From: an archaeon
GTDB lineage: Archaea; Nanobdellota; Nanobdellia; Woesearchaeales; GW2011-AR9
Length of the DNA: 43,944 bases
Assembly: GCA_018696395.1 (NCBI GenBank)
Contig: JABHQR010000019.1
Span: forward strand, 1 to 43,944
Direction of reading: 5' to 3'
Position 1 is the first letter of the stretch. Each line of letters starts with the position of its first letter. This document shows, in pieces, positions 23,043 through 30,685 of this stretch. The notes below the pieces were generated by a model. It was not told where the DNA came from and did not search any database. It saw only the letters and a list, made by a program, of their open reading frames with translations. The translations under genes and the position numbers were made by a program.

Positions 23043-24305
23043 ATGGTAAAAATTGAAAAAATAACTGCATTGGAAATTTTAGATAGTAGAGGTAATCCCA
23101 CTATTGAAGTTGATGTTCATACTGATAATGGTATTTTTTCTGCTGCTGTACCTAGTGGTGCATCTACTGGAAAAAACGAAGCAGTTGAGTTACGTGATGG
23201 TGGAAAAAGATATTTAGGTAAAGGTGTAACTAAAGCTATTAAAAATGTTGAGAAAAAAATTGGTCCTCGATTGGTTGACATAGATGTGTTTAGGCAAAGA
23301 GAAGTTGACGATATTATGCTTGAAATTGATAATACTTATAACAAATCCAAATTGGGTGCTAATGCTATATTAGGTGTAAGTTTAGCAGTGTCTCGTGCAG
23401 GAGCAGATTATTATGGTCTTGAATTGTATGAGTACATTAACGAAATGTTGTTAAGGGATGTTGACATGAAAATGCCACGTGCATTTTTTAATGTGATTAA
23501 TGGTGGCAAACATGCAGGCAACAAATTAGAAATTCAAGAATTTATGATCTCTCCAAAATCAAAATCTTTTAAAGAATCTTTACGTATAGCATCTGAAACT
23601 TATCATATTTTAAAAGATTTGATTAAGAAAAAGTATGGTCTGAATGCAGTTAATGTTGGTGATGAAGGCGGGTTTGCTCCACCAATTGCTAGAGCTGAAG
23701 ATGCTCTTGTTTTGATACGTAAAGCTATTGTTAAAGCTGGATATAAAGGTAAGATTGACATTGCATTGGATTGTGCAGCATCAGAATATTATGTTGCTCG
23801 TGGTAAAGGTTATTATTTGTTGAATGGTCGTAAGAGTGAAGAACAGTTAGTTAAATATTATTTAAAATTAATCAAAAGGTTTGGAATAATTTCTATTGAA
23901 GATCCTTTTCATGAAGAAGATTTCGAAACATTTTGTTTGTTGAGAAAAGAAATTTGGAAGGACGGATTAAGTTGTCAAGTTGTTGGTGATGATTTAACTG
24001 TAACTAATCCAGGGAGAGTTGAACAAGCTATCATTGAAAAAAGTTGTAATTGTTTATTATTAAAAGTTAACCAGGTGGGAAGTTTAACTGAAACTTTGGA
24101 AGCGGTAAGGTTAGCTTATGATCATAATTGGAAAGTAATGGTTTCGCATCGTAGTGGAGAAACTGAAGATCCTTACATCGCAGATTTAGCAGTAGGGTTA
24201 GGTTGTGGACAGATTAAAGCTGGTGCACCTTGTCGGAGTGAGAGAACTGCTAAGTATAATCAACTGCTTCGTATTGAGCAAAGTTTGCGAGGTGGCAGAA
24301 AATGA
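23043..24305 (+). CDS. eno: Enolase
   Basis: A 420-residue full-length enolase, which interconverts 2-phosphoglycerate and phosphoenolpyruvate. Family motifs include LDSRGNPTIEVDV, VPSGASTGKNEAVELRD, FNVINGGKHAGNKLEIQEFM, VGDEGGFAPP, the metal-ligand regions IALDCAASE, IEDPF and VGDDL, and the C-terminal signature SHRSGETEDPYIADLAVG. The last four bases overlap the next gene (ATGA), so translation of enolase and the M15-type peptidase is probably coupled. A glycolytic enzyme inside a run of secreted proteins is unusual; either chance clustering or a surface role is possible. Confidence 0.97.
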   Translation: MVKIEKITALEILDSRGNPTIEVDVHTDNGIFSAAVPSGASTGKNEAVELRDGGKRYLGKGVTKAIKNVEKKIGPRLVDIDVFRQREVDDIMLEIDNTYNKSKLGANAILGVSLAVSRAGADYYGLELYEYINEMLLRDVDMKMPRAFFNVINGGKHAGNKLEIQEFMISPKSKSFKESLRIASETYHILKDLIKKKYGLNAVNVGDEGGFAPPIARAEDALVLIRKAIVKAGYKGKIDIALDCAASEYYVARGKGYYLLNGRKSEEQLVKYYLKLIKRFGIISIEDPFHEEDFETFCLLRKEIWKDGLSCQVVGDDLTVTNPGRVEQAIIEKSCNCLLLKVNQVGSLTETLEAVRLAYDHNWKVMVSHRSGETEDPYIADLAVGLGCGQIKAGAPCRSERTAKYNQLLRIEQSLRGGRK

Positions 24306-26785
24306 ATCGTAGGTTTATGTTTCTGGTTTTGGTAGTGATGTTGGTAAGTTTGGTAAGTGTGATAGGGGATTTGGATGGGTGTCTTGAAGCTGAACTTTAT
24401 GATTTAAGTTCTTGTTCCACTGAAAGTTTGAAAACAGGCGATTATTGTTATGATTCTCAAGATAATGGGTTTATGTATGAAATTGTTAAAGATGATTATG
24501 GGTCCGGATCTTGGGGTCCTTATTATGACTATAAAAATGTAAGAGTTGATGAAAATTGTGATCTTGTCTCTTTTGAAGATTCTTTTAATGAAAATGGGGG
24601 TGATCCTGATGATAATAGTGGTGGTCAGAAGGGAGATAAATATGTTTTTTATGAAAGAGTTAAAGAAATGATTGGGATTGATTTTTCTTGTAATGGGAAT
24701 ATCGTTACAAATGAATTAGAGTCTTGTGAAAATGTCATATCTAGTGGATTATATGATTTCTGTTATGATAAAACTTTTTATGTTGGTATGACCTCAGCAA
24801 ATAGGTATCAATTATATTATTATACTGGTGGTAATGGTTGGTCGAATGCAAAATTAAATGATAATTGTCAACTCGAATTATTTGAAGATTCATTTTATGA
24901 AGGTGGTCATCCTAACGATGATGAAACTGATGGGTTAAAGGGGGATAATTTGTGGTACTATAATCTTGTTAAGGAAACATCACAATCTTATCTTGGAACT
25001 AGTATCATTTCTGAAGATAATTGTGATGTTTCTGATGAAGATCCTAGTTTATTATTCCAAAAGAATCCTTCTAATGGTGATTTTTATGATGGGTATTGGC
25101 ATAAAGAAGATTGTTATATCTGGTATAACATTGAAGGGGGGAAAGATATTAAAACAGAATCTTATGGGTATTGTGAAGACAGATCTTCTGGGGGATATTG
25201 TCAGTTTAAATATTATGATGGTGCATTCTATGAAACAAATGTTTATGAGTTAGATGAAGCCGAAGCATATGGTTATACCCCAGAAAGTGAATATATTGGT
25301 ACACAAATTTATGCTTGGCAGGAAGCAATAGATGCTGCTGAACGTGGAGCCACAGCAGACGCAAGTTCTGCAGCATATAACACTGCATCTTACACTCAAC
25401 AAGGTTGTAAAGATCAAAATAATTGTCAGGAAATAGATGAAGTATGGCGTGTTCTTTCTCCTGTTGTCAATGGTGGTGGTGAAACATACTGGATGCCAAA
25501 AGATGAAAATTCTGGTTCAATGGTGAGTTGGGAAACAATATATCACATGGCAGCTACAAGTAGTGGTACAAGTAATTATGCTTCTGAAGGTAGTGCTGCT
25601 AATTTTGATGGGTCTATTAACATAAATTCATTTGCTGATGCAATTAATGCATTGAACTCAATTGATGATCATGGGGCTTTATGTTGTGGTGATTGGGTTG
25701 CTAAAGTAATGAAATGGTTGGGCTATGGTTATGTTTATAATAGTAACACTGGTGGGAAAACAATGAAACAAATTGCAGAAACTCATGGTGTTCCAATAGC
25801 TTTTAATGTTAATAGAGATCAAGAAAAAATAGACCAGGGGCAAGCAGAAAGCCATATCTATTTTTTACTTGGTATTGGTTCAAGTGCTAATTATTGGTTA
25901 ACTGAATTATCTGACATACAGAAAGTAGGTTCTTTCACTAGCGTTGGTGAGAATCAAGCATTAGTGGTGGGTTATACTGGTGGGAGTGATGGGGCTGTTG
26001 TGCTTGAAGTATTAGATTTAGATTATTATTCTGCTTCTGAGATTAAAGGAGTTAAATTATGGGCTTATCCTTTGTGTGATGGGACATATGTTAGTAATAA
26101 TATCTGGTCTATTGCTGGATCAAATAATGGTGAAGCTGATTATGGTACTAATGCCTTTACTTATTATAATTGGGAACCAACTGGTCCTTCCCCATATTAT
26201 CCTTATGGTGAGGTTTGTTCAAGCTCTTCCAGTAGTTCTTCTTCATTAAGTTCAGCGTTAGTTTATAATCCAGTGTATGCTGGAACTTGTGCTGAATATA
26301 TGAGTGAATTGCCTGAAGGAGATTGTTCTAAAAATAGTTATGATGAGGGTGTTGATTATATTAATGCTGTTGCAAATTTTAAATCAAATGAATTGGAAAA
26401 GATTACTTTTGTTGGAAATGAAAATGTTTATGTGGATAAAGATAATGCTTATTCATGGGAGCAATTAAGTGATGCTATCTCTGCTTGTAATTATGATGTT
26501 CAAGTTTATGATAATTTTTGTTGTAGGAAGATTGCAGGAACTAGTTCATTCAGTAATCATGCTGAAGGCAATGCTATTGATATTAATGTTCCTAAGAACC
26601 CTTATACTTCTGAGAGAAGTTGTATTTCTAATGATTGTGATATGTCTTCTTGCGTATTACAAGCAATTAAAGATAACGGTTTTTATTGGGGGGGTGCTTG
26701 GGGTATTCCTTGTGATGCACACCATATTGAATACAGGGATGGTACTTCTAATGTTAATGATGTAAATTTTTGTAATGTTGCTTAA
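24302..26785 (+). CDS. Secreted M15-type metallopeptidase with duplicated N-terminal module
   Basis: An 827-residue exported protein (signal segment about 4-22, ending SVIGD). Two copies of a roughly 100-residue Cys-containing module follow; the anchors are SFEDSFNENGGDPDD near 90 and LFEDSFYEGGHPNDD near 193. A middle region contains ALCCGDWVAKVMKWLG near 460, faintly like a CHAP or NlpC/P60 cysteine site, but this is weak. After a Ser-rich linker (about 640) the last 175 residues match peptidase family M15: His753 and Asp760 in NHAEGNAIDI, then GFYWGGAWGIPCDAHHIEY with Asp805 and His808. The Asp-X-X-His form is typical of M15C L-alanyl-D-glutamate peptidases and endolysins. The gene overlaps enolase by four bases. 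Confidence 0.82.
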   Translation: MNRRFMFLVLVVMLVSLVSVIGDLDGCLEAELYDLSSCSTESLKTGDYCYDSQDNGFMYEIVKDDYGSGSWGPYYDYKNVRVDENCDLVSFEDSFNENGGDPDDNSGGQKGDKYVFYERVKEMIGIDFSCNGNIVTNELESCENVISSGLYDFCYDKTFYVGMTSANRYQLYYYTGGNGWSNAKLNDNCQLELFEDSFYEGGHPNDDETDGLKGDNLWYYNLVKETSQSYLGTSIISEDNCDVSDEDPSLLFQKNPSNGDFYDGYWHKEDCYIWYNIEGGKDIKTESYGYCEDRSSGGYCQFKYYDGAFYETNVYELDEAEAYGYTPESEYIGTQIYAWQEAIDAAERGATADASSAAYNTASYTQQGCKDQNNCQEIDEVWRVLSPVVNGGGETYWMPKDENSGSMVSWETIYHMAATSSGTSNYASEGSAANFDGSININSFADAINALNSIDDHGALCCGDWVAKVMKWLGYGYVYNSNTGGKTMKQIAETHGVPIAFNVNRDQEKIDQGQAESHIYFLLGIGSSANYWLTELSDIQKVGSFTSVGENQALVVGYTGGSDGAVVLEVLDLDYYSASEIKGVKLWAYPLCDGTYVSNNIWSIAGSNNGEADYGTNAFTYYNWEPTGPSPYYPYGEVCSSSSSSSSSLSSALVYNPVYAGTCAEYMSELPEGDCSKNSYDEGVDYINAVANFKSNELEKITFVGNENVYVDKDNAYSWEQLSDAISACNYDVQVYDNFCCRKIAGTSSFSNHAEGNAIDINVPKNPYTSERSCISNDCDMSSCVLQAIKDNGFYWGGAWGIPCDAHHIEYRDGTSNVNDVNFCNVA

Positions 26786-26882: not shown

Positions 26883-28772
26883 ATGTTAGAGAAAACTTTC
26901 TTGGACAAACTTGAAAGTAATTCTTATTCTAAAAAAGATTTGTCAAAAGTAAAGGAAGCGATAGAATATTCTAAACAATTATTATCCTCTAAAAAAAGGT
27001 TAGCAGGAGATTCTGTGTTTGATCATAATTTACGTATGGCAAACTTGTTAATTGATAATGGTGCAGATCCAGAAATTATCATTGCTGCAATTATTTACAA
27101 AATTCCTGATTTTGTTTCTGAAAAAGAAGTTCAAGAAAAGTTTGGTAAAGAAATTATTAACCTGATCAAATCCGCGAAAGATATTACACAACTGAAAACC
27201 AGGAACATGAAACTTAACGCAGAAAATTTGCGTAAAGTACTTCTGGCAACAGTTAACGATGTTAGAGTTATACTGATAAAACTGGTTGATAAATTAGATA
27301 ATCAAAAAGATATCCATTTTTTAGCTAAAGATGAACAGAAAAGAATTTCTCAAGAAATTTTAGATGTCTATGCGCCTTTAGCTTCTCGGTTAGGCGCAGA
27401 AAAAATTAAAGCAGATTTAGAAGATTTAGCTTTTAAAACTATCAATCCAAAAAAGTATCAAGAGATTGTAGGTTTTTTAGAAAGGTCAAGAGAAGATCGG
27501 GTGGATGATGTTAAACAAATTATTAAACAAATTAAATCGTTTAAAGATGTTAACATAATTAAAATCAAAGGTAGGCCTAAACATATTTACAGTATTTACA
27601 AAAAGATAACTAAACGGGGAGTAAAATTAAATGAACAATATGATCTTTTAGGTATCCGGGCGATAGTTTCTAATGAAAAAGAATGTTACCATCTGTTAGG
27701 TTGGTTACACGAAAAATTTGAACCGATAGATGGTAAATTAAAAGATTATATCGCTAATCCTAAACCTAATGGTTACCAATCTATTCATACCTCTTTAATT
27801 GTTGATGGTAAGAAAAAGTTAGAAGTTCAAATTAGAACTCCTGAAATGGACGAAAATGCTGAGGAAGGAGTAGCTGCGCATTGGGGTTATAAAGGTCAAA
27901 AAGCAGATAGGCAATTGGATACTAAACTTGCATGGGTAAAAAACATATTAGAATTACATAAAGATTCTAGTGCAAGAGAATTTATTGAAGATGTTAAGTT
28001 AGATGTGTTTGCTGACCAAATATATTGTTATACTCCCAAAGGTGACATTAAATATATGCCTTTAGGGTCTACTATACTAGATTTTGCTTACATGGTTCAT
28101 GAACAAATAGGGAACCATTGTGTTGGGGCAAGAGTTAATGGGAATTTTGCATCTTTAAGATCAGAACTGAATAAAGGTGATGTTGTTGAAATTTTAACTT
28201 CAAAAAAACAAATTCCAAGACGTAATTGGATTAAATTTGTTAAAACATCGCGAGCAAAAAGTAAAGTTAAGAAAGGTATTAGGTTATACCAAGGATTACC
28301 TGCAATCAGAACTTATACTTTAAGAAAAATAACTAAAGAAGAATATGACTCTTTAACTTATGCTCCAGAATATAAAAATGCCTCTTGTACTTTAGCTAAA
28401 TGTTGTAGGCCTGTTCCAAAAGAAAATTTAGCCGGAATAATAACTAAAAGAAGAATGATTTCTGTGCATAGGGAAGATTGTGACAGGATTGAAAATGAAG
28501 AATCTAGGTGGATAAAAGTTGACTGGAAAGAAACTTTCAATAAAAAAATTAAGTTTTATGTTGTCGCAAAATCTAGGTCTGGGTTATTGGCAGATTTGTT
28601 ACATACCATTGCAACTGTAAGATTTGAAGTTAAGGAGGCTAAAGCTAAACTTGTGGGTAATAATTCTACTGAATGTTCTTTTTTAATAATTCCAAAAGAA
28701 ATTGATGAACTAGAAAAATTAGTAGTTAGGTTAAAGAAAGTAGAAGGAGTTAAAAAAATCTTTTTTGAATAA
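26883..28772 (+). CDS. Long RelA/SpoT homologue: synthetase intact, hydrolase degenerate
   Basis: A 629-residue protein with the full long-RSH order. The N-terminal HD region keeps Arg39, His48, Asp136 and Asn140, but the HD pair itself is Tyr72-Lys73 and the following acidic residues are lost, so (p)ppGpp hydrolysis is unlikely. The synthetase domain is well kept: GRPKHIYSIYKK (230-241), YDLLGIRAIV with Asp254, KLKDYIANPKPNGYQSIHT with Tyr298, and EVQIRT with Glu314. A TGS domain (about 378-440), a Cys/His motif (CTLAKCCRP and VHREDC) and a C-terminal ACT domain (about 555-629) follow. It probably makes (p)ppGpp or a related alarmone under ribosome control. Long RSH proteins are rare in archaea, so lateral gain from bacteria is likely. 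Confidence 0.93.
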   Translation: MLEKTFLDKLESNSYSKKDLSKVKEAIEYSKQLLSSKKRLAGDSVFDHNLRMANLLIDNGADPEIIIAAIIYKIPDFVSEKEVQEKFGKEIINLIKSAKDITQLKTRNMKLNAENLRKVLLATVNDVRVILIKLVDKLDNQKDIHFLAKDEQKRISQEILDVYAPLASRLGAEKIKADLEDLAFKTINPKKYQEIVGFLERSREDRVDDVKQIIKQIKSFKDVNIIKIKGRPKHIYSIYKKITKRGVKLNEQYDLLGIRAIVSNEKECYHLLGWLHEKFEPIDGKLKDYIANPKPNGYQSIHTSLIVDGKKKLEVQIRTPEMDENAEEGVAAHWGYKGQKADRQLDTKLAWVKNILELHKDSSAREFIEDVKLDVFADQIYCYTPKGDIKYMPLGSTILDFAYMVHEQIGNHCVGARVNGNFASLRSELNKGDVVEILTSKKQIPRRNWIKFVKTSRAKSKVKKGIRLYQGLPAIRTYTLRKITKEEYDSLTYAPEYKNASCTLAKCCRPVPKENLAGIITKRRMISVHREDCDRIENEESRWIKVDWKETFNKKIKFYVVAKSRSGLLADLLHTIATVRFEVKEAKAKLVGNNSTECSFLIIPKEIDELEKLVVRLKKVEGVKKIFFE

Positions 28773-28810
28773 GATTTATTAATGTGGCTTTTAAAATAAA
28801 GTTTAATAAA

Positions 28811-29341
28811 ATGAAAATAGTTATTTGTACATTAAATAAAGCGAAAAATGATGCTGTTAAAAATGTTATCAGTAAAGTTTGGTCAGATGTAGAATTCATT
28901 TCAATTAAAACAGAATCAGGAATTTCTGAACAACCAATGTCAGATCAAGAAAGTATTCAGGGGGCAATAAATAGGGCTAAATTTGGATTAAAACAAATTG
29001 CTGCTGCTGATTATTCAATTGGGTTAGAAGGTAATGTTGATGAAAATAATTTTGGTATGTTCCTTAATGGTTGGGCATCTATCATAAATAAAAAAGGGAA
29101 AATTGGTTTAGGTTGTAGTGGAAAAGTTGAATTGCCAATTAAAATTTCTGAACAACTTAAAGTAGGAAAAGAGTTGGGTCCATTAATTCAAGAATTGATG
29201 AAAGATAATTCTATCAGAAATAGTTTAGGTACAAATGGTGTGTTAACAAAAGGGCTTTATACTAGAACTAAAGAGTTTGAAGATGCAGTAAGTTGTGCTT
29301 TGGCAAAGTTTGTTAATGAAAATATGTATAAATCAGAATAA
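28811..29341 (+). CDS. Inosine/xanthosine triphosphatase-like protein (YjjX/DUF84 family)
   Basis: A 176-residue protein from the ATG at 28811; an upstream in-frame GTG at 28784 would add nine residues but leads into a poorly conserved stretch. The family pattern is clear: VICTLNKAKNDAVKN, SGISEQPMSDQESIQGAINRAKFGL, ADYSIGLEGNVDE, ELGPLIQELM, GTNGVLTKGLYTR. Members hydrolyse non-canonical ITP and XTP to monophosphates to keep them out of nucleic acids. It starts 38 bases after the RSH gene on the same strand, so the two may share a transcript. Confidence 0.88.
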   Translation: MKIVICTLNKAKNDAVKNVISKVWSDVEFISIKTESGISEQPMSDQESIQGAINRAKFGLKQIAAADYSIGLEGNVDENNFGMFLNGWASIINKKGKIGLGCSGKVELPIKISEQLKVGKELGPLIQELMKDNSIRNSLGTNGVLTKGLYTRTKEFEDAVSCALAKFVNENMYKSE

Positions 29342-29650: not shown

Positions 29651-30685
29651 TCATAACATAATCTTAACCATATCAATTATTCTGTTACTGTAACCCCATT
29701 CATTATCGTACCAAGAAAAAACTTTTATAGAATTTCCATTGATTACTTTGGTTAACTTACTATCAAATATTGAAGAATGTGGGTTGGTTAAAATGTCAGT
29801 AGAAACTAGTTCTTCTTCAGAATATTCAAACACATTTTTAAGATCTTTACTTCTTGCAGCTATCTCAAAAGCAGAATTAACTTTTTCTACATCAACTACT
29901 TGTTTCAATTGACAAGTAAAATCTACAATTGAACCATTTACTACTGGAACTCTTATTGCCATTCCATCAATTTTATCTTTAAGTTTTGGTAAAACTAATG
30001 TTGTAGCTATAGCTGCTCCTGTTGTAGTAGGAATCATGTTAACTGCTGCTGCTCTTCCTCTTCGATGTTTTGAACTTGCTAAATCAACAACTTTTTGTGT
30101 GGATGTGTAAGCATGGACAGTGGTAACTAATCCAGAAATAATGCCAAAATTGTCATCAAGAACTTTAGCAATTGGTGCTAAGCAATTAGTTGTACATGAA
30201 GCATTACTTATAATATTGTCTTTTTTCTGATTATATTCTTTATGGTTTACGCCATATACTAATGTTTTAATGTCGTTATTGTCTCCTTTATTTTTTGCAG
30301 GAGCAGAAAGAATTACTTTTTTTGCACCAGCTTTAAGATGCTTACTTGCCAATTCTTTTGTTAAGAAAAATCCTGTACTTTCAATTACCACATCAACTTT
30401 AAGTTTTTTCCAAGGAAGTTTAGCTGGATCTTTTTCTGAGAAAACAGGTATCTTTTTATTTTTCTTACTAGGACTATCTCCAATAATTAAACTATTTTTG
30501 TCACTTGAAACATTCCCATTAAACTTACCATGGGCAGAATCGTATTTTAATAAGTAAGCTAAATTATCTGTTGGGGTTAAATCGTTAATTGCTACAAAAT
30601 TAATTTTTTTATCTTTAAAACCTGCCCGGAAAATCATTCGACCAATCCGACCAAAACCATTAATTGCTACATTTATCATCTTCAT
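29651..30685 (-). CDS. gap: Glyceraldehyde-3-phosphate dehydrogenase, bacterial/eukaryal class I type
   Basis: A 344-residue phosphorylating GAPDH of the bacterial class: Rossmann motif NGFGRIGR, Asp35 in AINDL (NAD preference), catalytic Cys164 in SNASCTTNC, His191 in TTVHAYTSTQ, and WYDNEWGYSNRI near the end. Most archaea use a different class II GAPDH or ferredoxin-dependent enzymes, so this copy probably came from bacteria. The start could instead be the second ATG (codon 3), which is better spaced from an AGAGGT ribosome site. It catalyses interconversion of glyceraldehyde 3-phosphate and 1,3-bisphosphoglycerate. Confidence 0.96.
   Translation of the reverse strand: MKMINVAINGFGRIGRMIFRAGFKDKKINFVAINDLTPTDNLAYLLKYDSAHGKFNGNVSSDKNSLIIGDSPSKKNKKIPVFSEKDPAKLPWKKLKVDVVIESTGFFLTKELASKHLKAGAKKVILSAPAKNKGDNNDIKTLVYGVNHKEYNQKKDNIISNASCTTNCLAPIAKVLDDNFGIISGLVTTVHAYTSTQKVVDLASSKHRRGRAAAVNMIPTTTGAAIATTLVLPKLKDKIDGMAIRVPVVNGSIVDFTCQLKQVVDVEKVNSAFEIAARSKDLKNVFEYSEEELVSTDILTNPHSSIFDSKLTKVINGNSIKVFSWYDNEWGYSNRIIDMVKIML

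Follow-up and report, generated by a model that had tools for sequence, protein, structure and literature searches.

Among described long RelA/SpoT homologues (RSHs), E. coli RelA carries an inactive pseudo-HD domain that regulates synthesis (PMC8012599). In archaea, Atkinson et al. found no long RSH in 2011 (PMC3153485), and such proteins were then thought absent; assays of two archaeal model species, both without RSH genes, detected no (p)ppGpp (PMC8646023), and we found no report of its detection in any archaeon in the open-access literature. A 2021 survey records RelA/SpoT in 69.0% of Diapherotrites, 41.7% of Woesearchaeota, 21.3% of Pacearchaeota, and 19.0% of Nanoarchaeota and predicts a bacterial origin for the DPANN proteins (PMC8407392). 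An archaeal long RSH gene is thus of an already known kind; what is new is the proposed split synthetase/hydrolase arrangement described here. A search of the open-access literature retrieved no description of hydrolase loss or linker deletion in archaeal RSHs or of the candidate hydrolase family that we label H400.

The gene occupies positions 26883 (ATG) to 28772 (stop) of the plus strand of the 43,944-nucleotide stretch of DNA analyzed here (the window), with an open frame encoding 629 residues. It encodes the only PF04607 protein found by whole-genome search of the window's genome (24 contigs totaling 1.38 Mb, with 98.9% completeness). This small genome is archaeal, as the earlier note had proposed: the archaeal small-subunit model scores best on its 16S rRNA, and archaeal-type EF-2/EF-1A genes are present; an organism of the DPANN/Woesearchaeota type is likely. 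The bacterial domain order given in that note is likewise supported by Pfam (HD_4, RelA_SpoT, TGS, and ACT_4) and by conserved zinc ligands in the Cys/His region. All of the domains lie on the plus strand. A degenerate pseudo-hydrolase HD_4 domain (residues 26 to 172, 26958..27398; PF13328, E = 5e-35) is followed by the synthetase domain (residues 230 to 340, 27570..27902; PF04607, E = 2e-36) and the TGS domain (residues 380 to 439, 28020..28199; PF02824, E = 5e-18), whose His406 aligns with residue 420 of PDB entry 6yxa, the equivalent of B. subtilis Rel H420. A shortened linker (28200..28385) leads to the zinc-finger (RIS/ZFD) region (28386..28481), with C507, C508, H529, and C533 plus a family-specific C502, and then to the ACT domain (residues 557 to 626, 28551..28760; PF13291, 28.3 bits against a cutoff of 27). 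With these domains and the zinc finger in order and a TIGR00691 (NCBIfam) score of 532 bits against a cutoff of 499, the protein belongs to the long RSHs. By sequence, B. subtilis Rel (6yxa, E = 2e-112) is the closest protein with a solved structure. A structure search returned RelA, Rel, and SpoT as best matches; the model used was of modest confidence (mean pLDDT of 59), was built from five alignment rows only, and serves as support only.

The loss of the hydrolase site was confirmed at the levels of both codons and alignment. The codons tac aaa (27096..27101, plus strand) place Tyr72-Lys73 where the HD pair is expected, and the segment YKIPDF aligns to the bacterial HDxxED, with the equivalents of H77, D78, E81, and D82 all lost. 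The alignment controls read as expected, with E. coli SpoT intact and E. coli RelA dead. A shifted but still present HD, which the earlier note had proposed checking for, was ruled out, as the aligned block contains no neighboring HD. Other residues of the hydrolase pocket persist, namely Arg39, His48, Asp136, and Asn140 (equivalents of R44, H53, D144, and N148). The synthetase residues listed earlier (Asp254, KLKD at 285 to 288, Tyr298, and Glu314) were all verified in the translation. With Y72-K73 in place of an intact HDxxED, the protein falls outside the bifunctional Rel enzymes, and its dead HD site and complete synthetase residues are those of a RelA-type, synthetase-only RSH. It is not a member of proteobacterial RelA, as it groups in a separate archaeal clade (99% SH-aLRT) and carries KLKD rather than ExDD.

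We compared 40 long RSHs from 40 genomes of the window's family (family f1) with those of other families and bacteria. The HD pair (H77-D78) is kept in none of the 40, which rules out a loss confined to one genome. The D144 equivalent (Asp136) is retained in only two members, and the E81 and D82 equivalents are scattered among the set, while those of R44, H53, and N148 are each present in 40/40. New family-specific residues have appeared in the HD domain: an Asn after His48 (35/40), Lys137 (40/40), and Asp139 (35/40). Synthetase residues G230, R231, K233, D254, K287, D288, Y298, E314, Q316, and R318 are invariant (40/40 each), with variation in the first letter of KLKD. TGS His406 is present in all 40 proteins; the zinc-finger residues C507, C508, H529, and C533, as well as the extra cysteine C502 (28386-28388) ahead of the CC pair, occur in all 39 members reaching that region. 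Mean pairwise identity within the family is lowest in the HD domain (0.48, versus 0.65 for the synthetase domain), while in HD-intact relatives the two are equally conserved (0.54 and 0.55, respectively). The ACT domain has a mean identity of 0.64 in the family versus 0.26 in other archaeal RSHs. Judged from these alignments, the HD loss is an old, clade-wide state. Two genomes hold further copies. The dead copy of G034 (L003), a genome placed in family f1, is more divergent and lies outside the 40, and G012 has two long RSHs (L002 and L037), one of the family's dead-HD type and one intact; the grouping of the intact copy with other families suggests transfer.

Two genes near the RSH recur in relatives. 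An enolase gene (23043..24305, plus strand; TIGR01060) lies upstream, and a convergent type I GAPDH gene (29651..30685, minus strand; TIGR01534) lies downstream; enolase is a neighbor of the RSH at 18 loci of relatives, even though the flanks were short, and GAPDH is at 25. A gene for a DUF84 inosine/xanthosine triphosphatase-like protein (28784-29341) starts 11 bases past the RSH stop. As a candidate RSH-linked hydrolase, this NTPase was ruled out, since no DUF84 gene was found next to the RSH in relatives. Between enolase and RSH lies a secreted-looking ORF of 827 residues (24302-26785), the C-terminal end of which (NHAEGNAIDINVP) resembles a D-Ala-D-Ala peptidase motif. In many relatives, enolase and RSH are adjacent.

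Long RSHs, which the earlier note called rare in archaea, are not rare in this phylum: 106 of the 371 genomes sampled encode one above the curated cutoff, in line with the survey figures quoted above from PMC8407392. Degenerate HD sites occur in families f1, f78, f83 (except G281), f94, f50, f37, f20, and f92, as well as in genomes G139 (f9) and G103 (f52). Within f9, f52, and f83, close relatives have an intact HD, and HDxxED is present in the intact relatives belonging to other families of this order. In a tree computed without the HD columns from the archaeal rows and 13 bacterial sequences, the archaeal RSHs form a single clade apart from the bacterial sequences (SH-aLRT of 99%), and family f1 falls with f94, f50, f37, and L003 in one dead-HD clade (98%). 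Six changes of HD state are counted within the archaeal rows, a count that holds for that tree and is not firm, given a quick search and a tree in which some forks are unsettled and a few branches long. The alignment and tree proposed in the earlier note for finding the donor resolved the archaeal copies as one clade and identified no donor lineage, as these copies do not nest in the 13 bacterial sequences sampled. When named genomes were scanned using one sequence as the query, only five loci, of the Ignavibacteria type, were retrieved. Two side observations concern RSH architecture elsewhere in the sample. In family f79 (L149, L154, L158, L160, L162, L167, L169, and L176), an intact HDxxED accompanies an acidic ExDD synthetase motif; ExDD is otherwise typical of proteobacterial RelA, so that here the two hallmarks of RelA do not go together. 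Several relatives (L058:1291-2391 and L059 to L063) encode a separate protein of 355 to 460 residues with a RelA_SpoT synthetase domain, which is absent from the window's genome.

The linker between the TGS domain and the zinc finger spans 73 residues between fixed points in the window's RSH, with the bacterial helical domain mostly absent. Complete archaeal copies have 64 to 81 residues here and bacteria have 131 to 156 (for E. coli RelA, see PMC4974054). The shared short linker, together with archaeal monophyly, suggests one bacterial acquisition followed by deletion within the linker.

The earlier note reasoned that a synthetase-only enzyme needs a separate enzyme to remove the alarmone and proposed a search for a small alarmone hydrolase elsewhere in the genome; a search of this genome yielded two candidates. 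The first emerged from a whole-genome HD_4 search as a second HD_4 protein, of 161 residues (L078:1486-1971, contig C9; PF13328, E = 2e-12), with EF-2/EF-1A genes nearby. Its motifs HP, LHDIVEDT, and KLCDTLHN are intact, and a single HD_4 domain, MESH1-like size, and a full catalytic set mark it as a candidate small alarmone hydrolase, probably active on (p)ppGpp to judge by those motifs. Such proteins are patchy within family f1, occurring in 6 of the 40 RSH-bearing genomes. Of the six dead-HD genomes in f94, five encode, in place of H400, a small HD_4 protein identified by domain match rather than by motifs.

The second candidate, H400, is an HD protein family of approximately 395 residues that was reached via weak HD_4 matches in relatives. 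The copy in the window's genome (G000:C2:26095-27264; L108:4087-5271, minus strand) matches the family profile at E = 2e-113 and, taken alone, has no match in Pfam or NCBIfam. The best named match of H400 is spoT_relA (E = 4e-14), and its profile scores 98.65% against the RSH hydrolase domain and E = 9e-10 against solved Rel structures. The equivalents of R44, H53, H77, D78, E81, and D144 are present in all 40 copies, that of N148 is present in 39/40, and the D82 position is Glu in 33/40; the invariant set R, H, H-D, E, K, D, H is complete in every copy. H400 thus possesses the residues of an RSH-type hydrolase, with matching motifs (R..G..HP, HDxxE, and KLADRxHN), and would be expected to hydrolyze (p)ppGpp. 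It also contains a large insertion, and its C-terminal half belongs to no recognized family. Some genomes (G026, G042, G047, and G039) have two copies. In genus g24, the H400 match crosses one in-frame TAG (G023:C23:211039-212214 and G040:C61:3931-5082), perhaps a displaced stop or an artifact of where the match ends.

We compared the distribution of H400 with the state of the RSH HD site. It occurs in 31 of the 40 long-RSH-bearing genomes of family f1 and in 23 of the 25 RSH-bearing genomes that are at least 90% complete (a count including G034). Outside the family, full-length or strong matches are found only in two genomes of one f9 genus. A second case lies within f9, where the RSH hydrolase site of G139 is altered (LLHN..EY) and the genome also encodes an H400 relative carrying the full HD set; G056 of f9 has an intact RSH HD and no H400. 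Across the tree, H400 is present in 32/60 genomes with a dead RSH and in 0/44 with only intact RSHs (Fisher P = 2e-10, a value inflated by shared ancestry, as approximately two independent lineages contribute). Testing HD loss against H400 by independent pairs had no power, as too few independent events were available. Five family f1 genomes (G003, G018, G024, G025, and G047) have H400 with no long RSH detected; four of these are <90% complete, and G003 is 95% complete. In the dead-HD lineages f78 (mostly), f83, f50, f37, f20, f92, and G103, no HD_4 hydrolase was detected. Whether archaeal Rel repeatedly lost its hydrolase half, with the alarmone cycle split over a helical-domain-reduced, synthetase-only RSH and a new family of approximately 395-residue hydrolases replacing the dead HD, is in our estimation an even call.

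Taken together, we regard as reasonably probable a reading in which the window's protein is a bacterially derived, helical-domain-reduced, synthetase-only RSH that senses the ribosome, with hydrolysis in trans by H400 and a small hydrolase. A long RSH would have entered these archaea from bacteria and lost most of its helical domain; the metal-binding hydrolase residues would have disappeared later, in the lineage leading to family f1, with the HD fold retained as a regulatory module, as in gamma-proteobacterial RelA independently. Uncharged tRNA on stalled ribosomes would most likely be sensed via the TGS domain, zinc finger, and ACT domain, the RSH would produce (p)ppGpp, and H400 and, in the window's genome, also the 161-residue protein would remove it. 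Domain order, residue states and their conservation, the pattern of HD loss, and the presence and distribution of the candidate hydrolases come directly from the sequences. We infer the bacterial origin, synthesis activity, and ribosome sensing of the RSH, hydrolysis by H400 and by the small hydrolase, and, with the earlier note, a working response under unusual control. Two doubts about the RSH itself carry little weight. That it is inactive or decaying after its acquisition, and plays no part in alarmone metabolism, is very improbable: the HD site is lost, and the open-access literature yielded no (p)ppGpp measurement for any such archaeon, but the frame is open, the synthetase residues are complete across 40 species, the C-terminal domains are highly conserved in the family, and the enolase-RSH-gap synteny is stable. 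Hydrolysis by the HD domain through other residues, its motif being only displaced, is the least credible of the alternatives; the four persisting pocket residues would suit it, whereas all 40 family members lack the HD pair, only 2/40 keep Asp136, and no HD lies nearby in the aligned block.

A more substantial alternative accepts a synthetase-only RSH and gives H400 a different substrate (another nucleotide or NADPH), leaving removal to the small hydrolase, Nudix-type enzymes, or dilution. HD folds in general act on many nucleotides, and the large insert, the unrecognized C-terminal half, the five H400 genomes with no long RSH detected, and the dead-HD lineages in which both H400 and any detectable HD_4 protein are missing would all fit. 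We nonetheless consider it unlikely, given a catalytic set specific to RSH hydrolases, a best named match to spoT_relA, and the near-universal presence of H400 where the family f1 hydrolase is dead and its absence where the hydrolase is intact; the small hydrolase as sole remover is further disfavored by its presence in just six of the 40 genomes. Slightly less doubtful, and compatible with the preferred reading, is that the degenerate HD pocket is no mere scaffold but has been remodeled into a regulatory site that senses nucleotides. The invariance of the R44, H53, and N148 equivalents despite loss of the metal residues and the new family-specific residues point that way, but the HD is the least conserved domain of the family, and the dead lineages f83 and f94 lose R44/H53/N148-type residues too.

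Under the preferred reading of a synthetase-only RSH with hydrolysis in trans, an archaeal family keeps a complete sole synthetase and tRNA-sensing residues, beneath an archaeal ribosome, with hydrolysis apparently in other genes. The question of an archaeal stringent response becomes testable with three defined proteins, and H400, a conserved protein whose copy in this genome matches no Pfam or NCBIfam model, gains a probable function. Repeated independent hydrolase losses would allow one to ask what must coevolve with a synthetase-only RSH, and, if the reading is true, the clade provides natural replicates of the RelA/SpoT split.

Compared with known systems, the archaeal protein resembles RelA of the beta- and gammaproteobacteria (E. 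coli RelA), likewise a long RSH with a dead HD, active synthetase residues, a TGS domain, a zinc finger, and an ACT domain and likewise dependent on a second protein for hydrolysis (in the archaeal case, candidates predicted from sequence). It differs in that its HD loss is independent, its synthetase motif is KLKD/RLKD rather than the acidic ExDD of RelA, its helical domain is mostly absent, and its partner would be a stand-alone HD protein instead of a second long RSH. With the bifunctional Rel enzymes (B. subtilis Rel and RelSeq), it shares domain order, an RxKD-type synthetase motif, and the TGS histidine, but HDxxED is lost and the linker is about half as long. The 161-residue protein on contig C9 carries the same motifs as the small alarmone hydrolases and MESH1, although it is encoded apart from the RSH and is patchy in family f1. 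Relative to the DPANN RelA/SpoT proteins of PMC8407392, hydrolase loss, linker deletion, and a separate HD protein are features that the part of that survey consulted does not describe.
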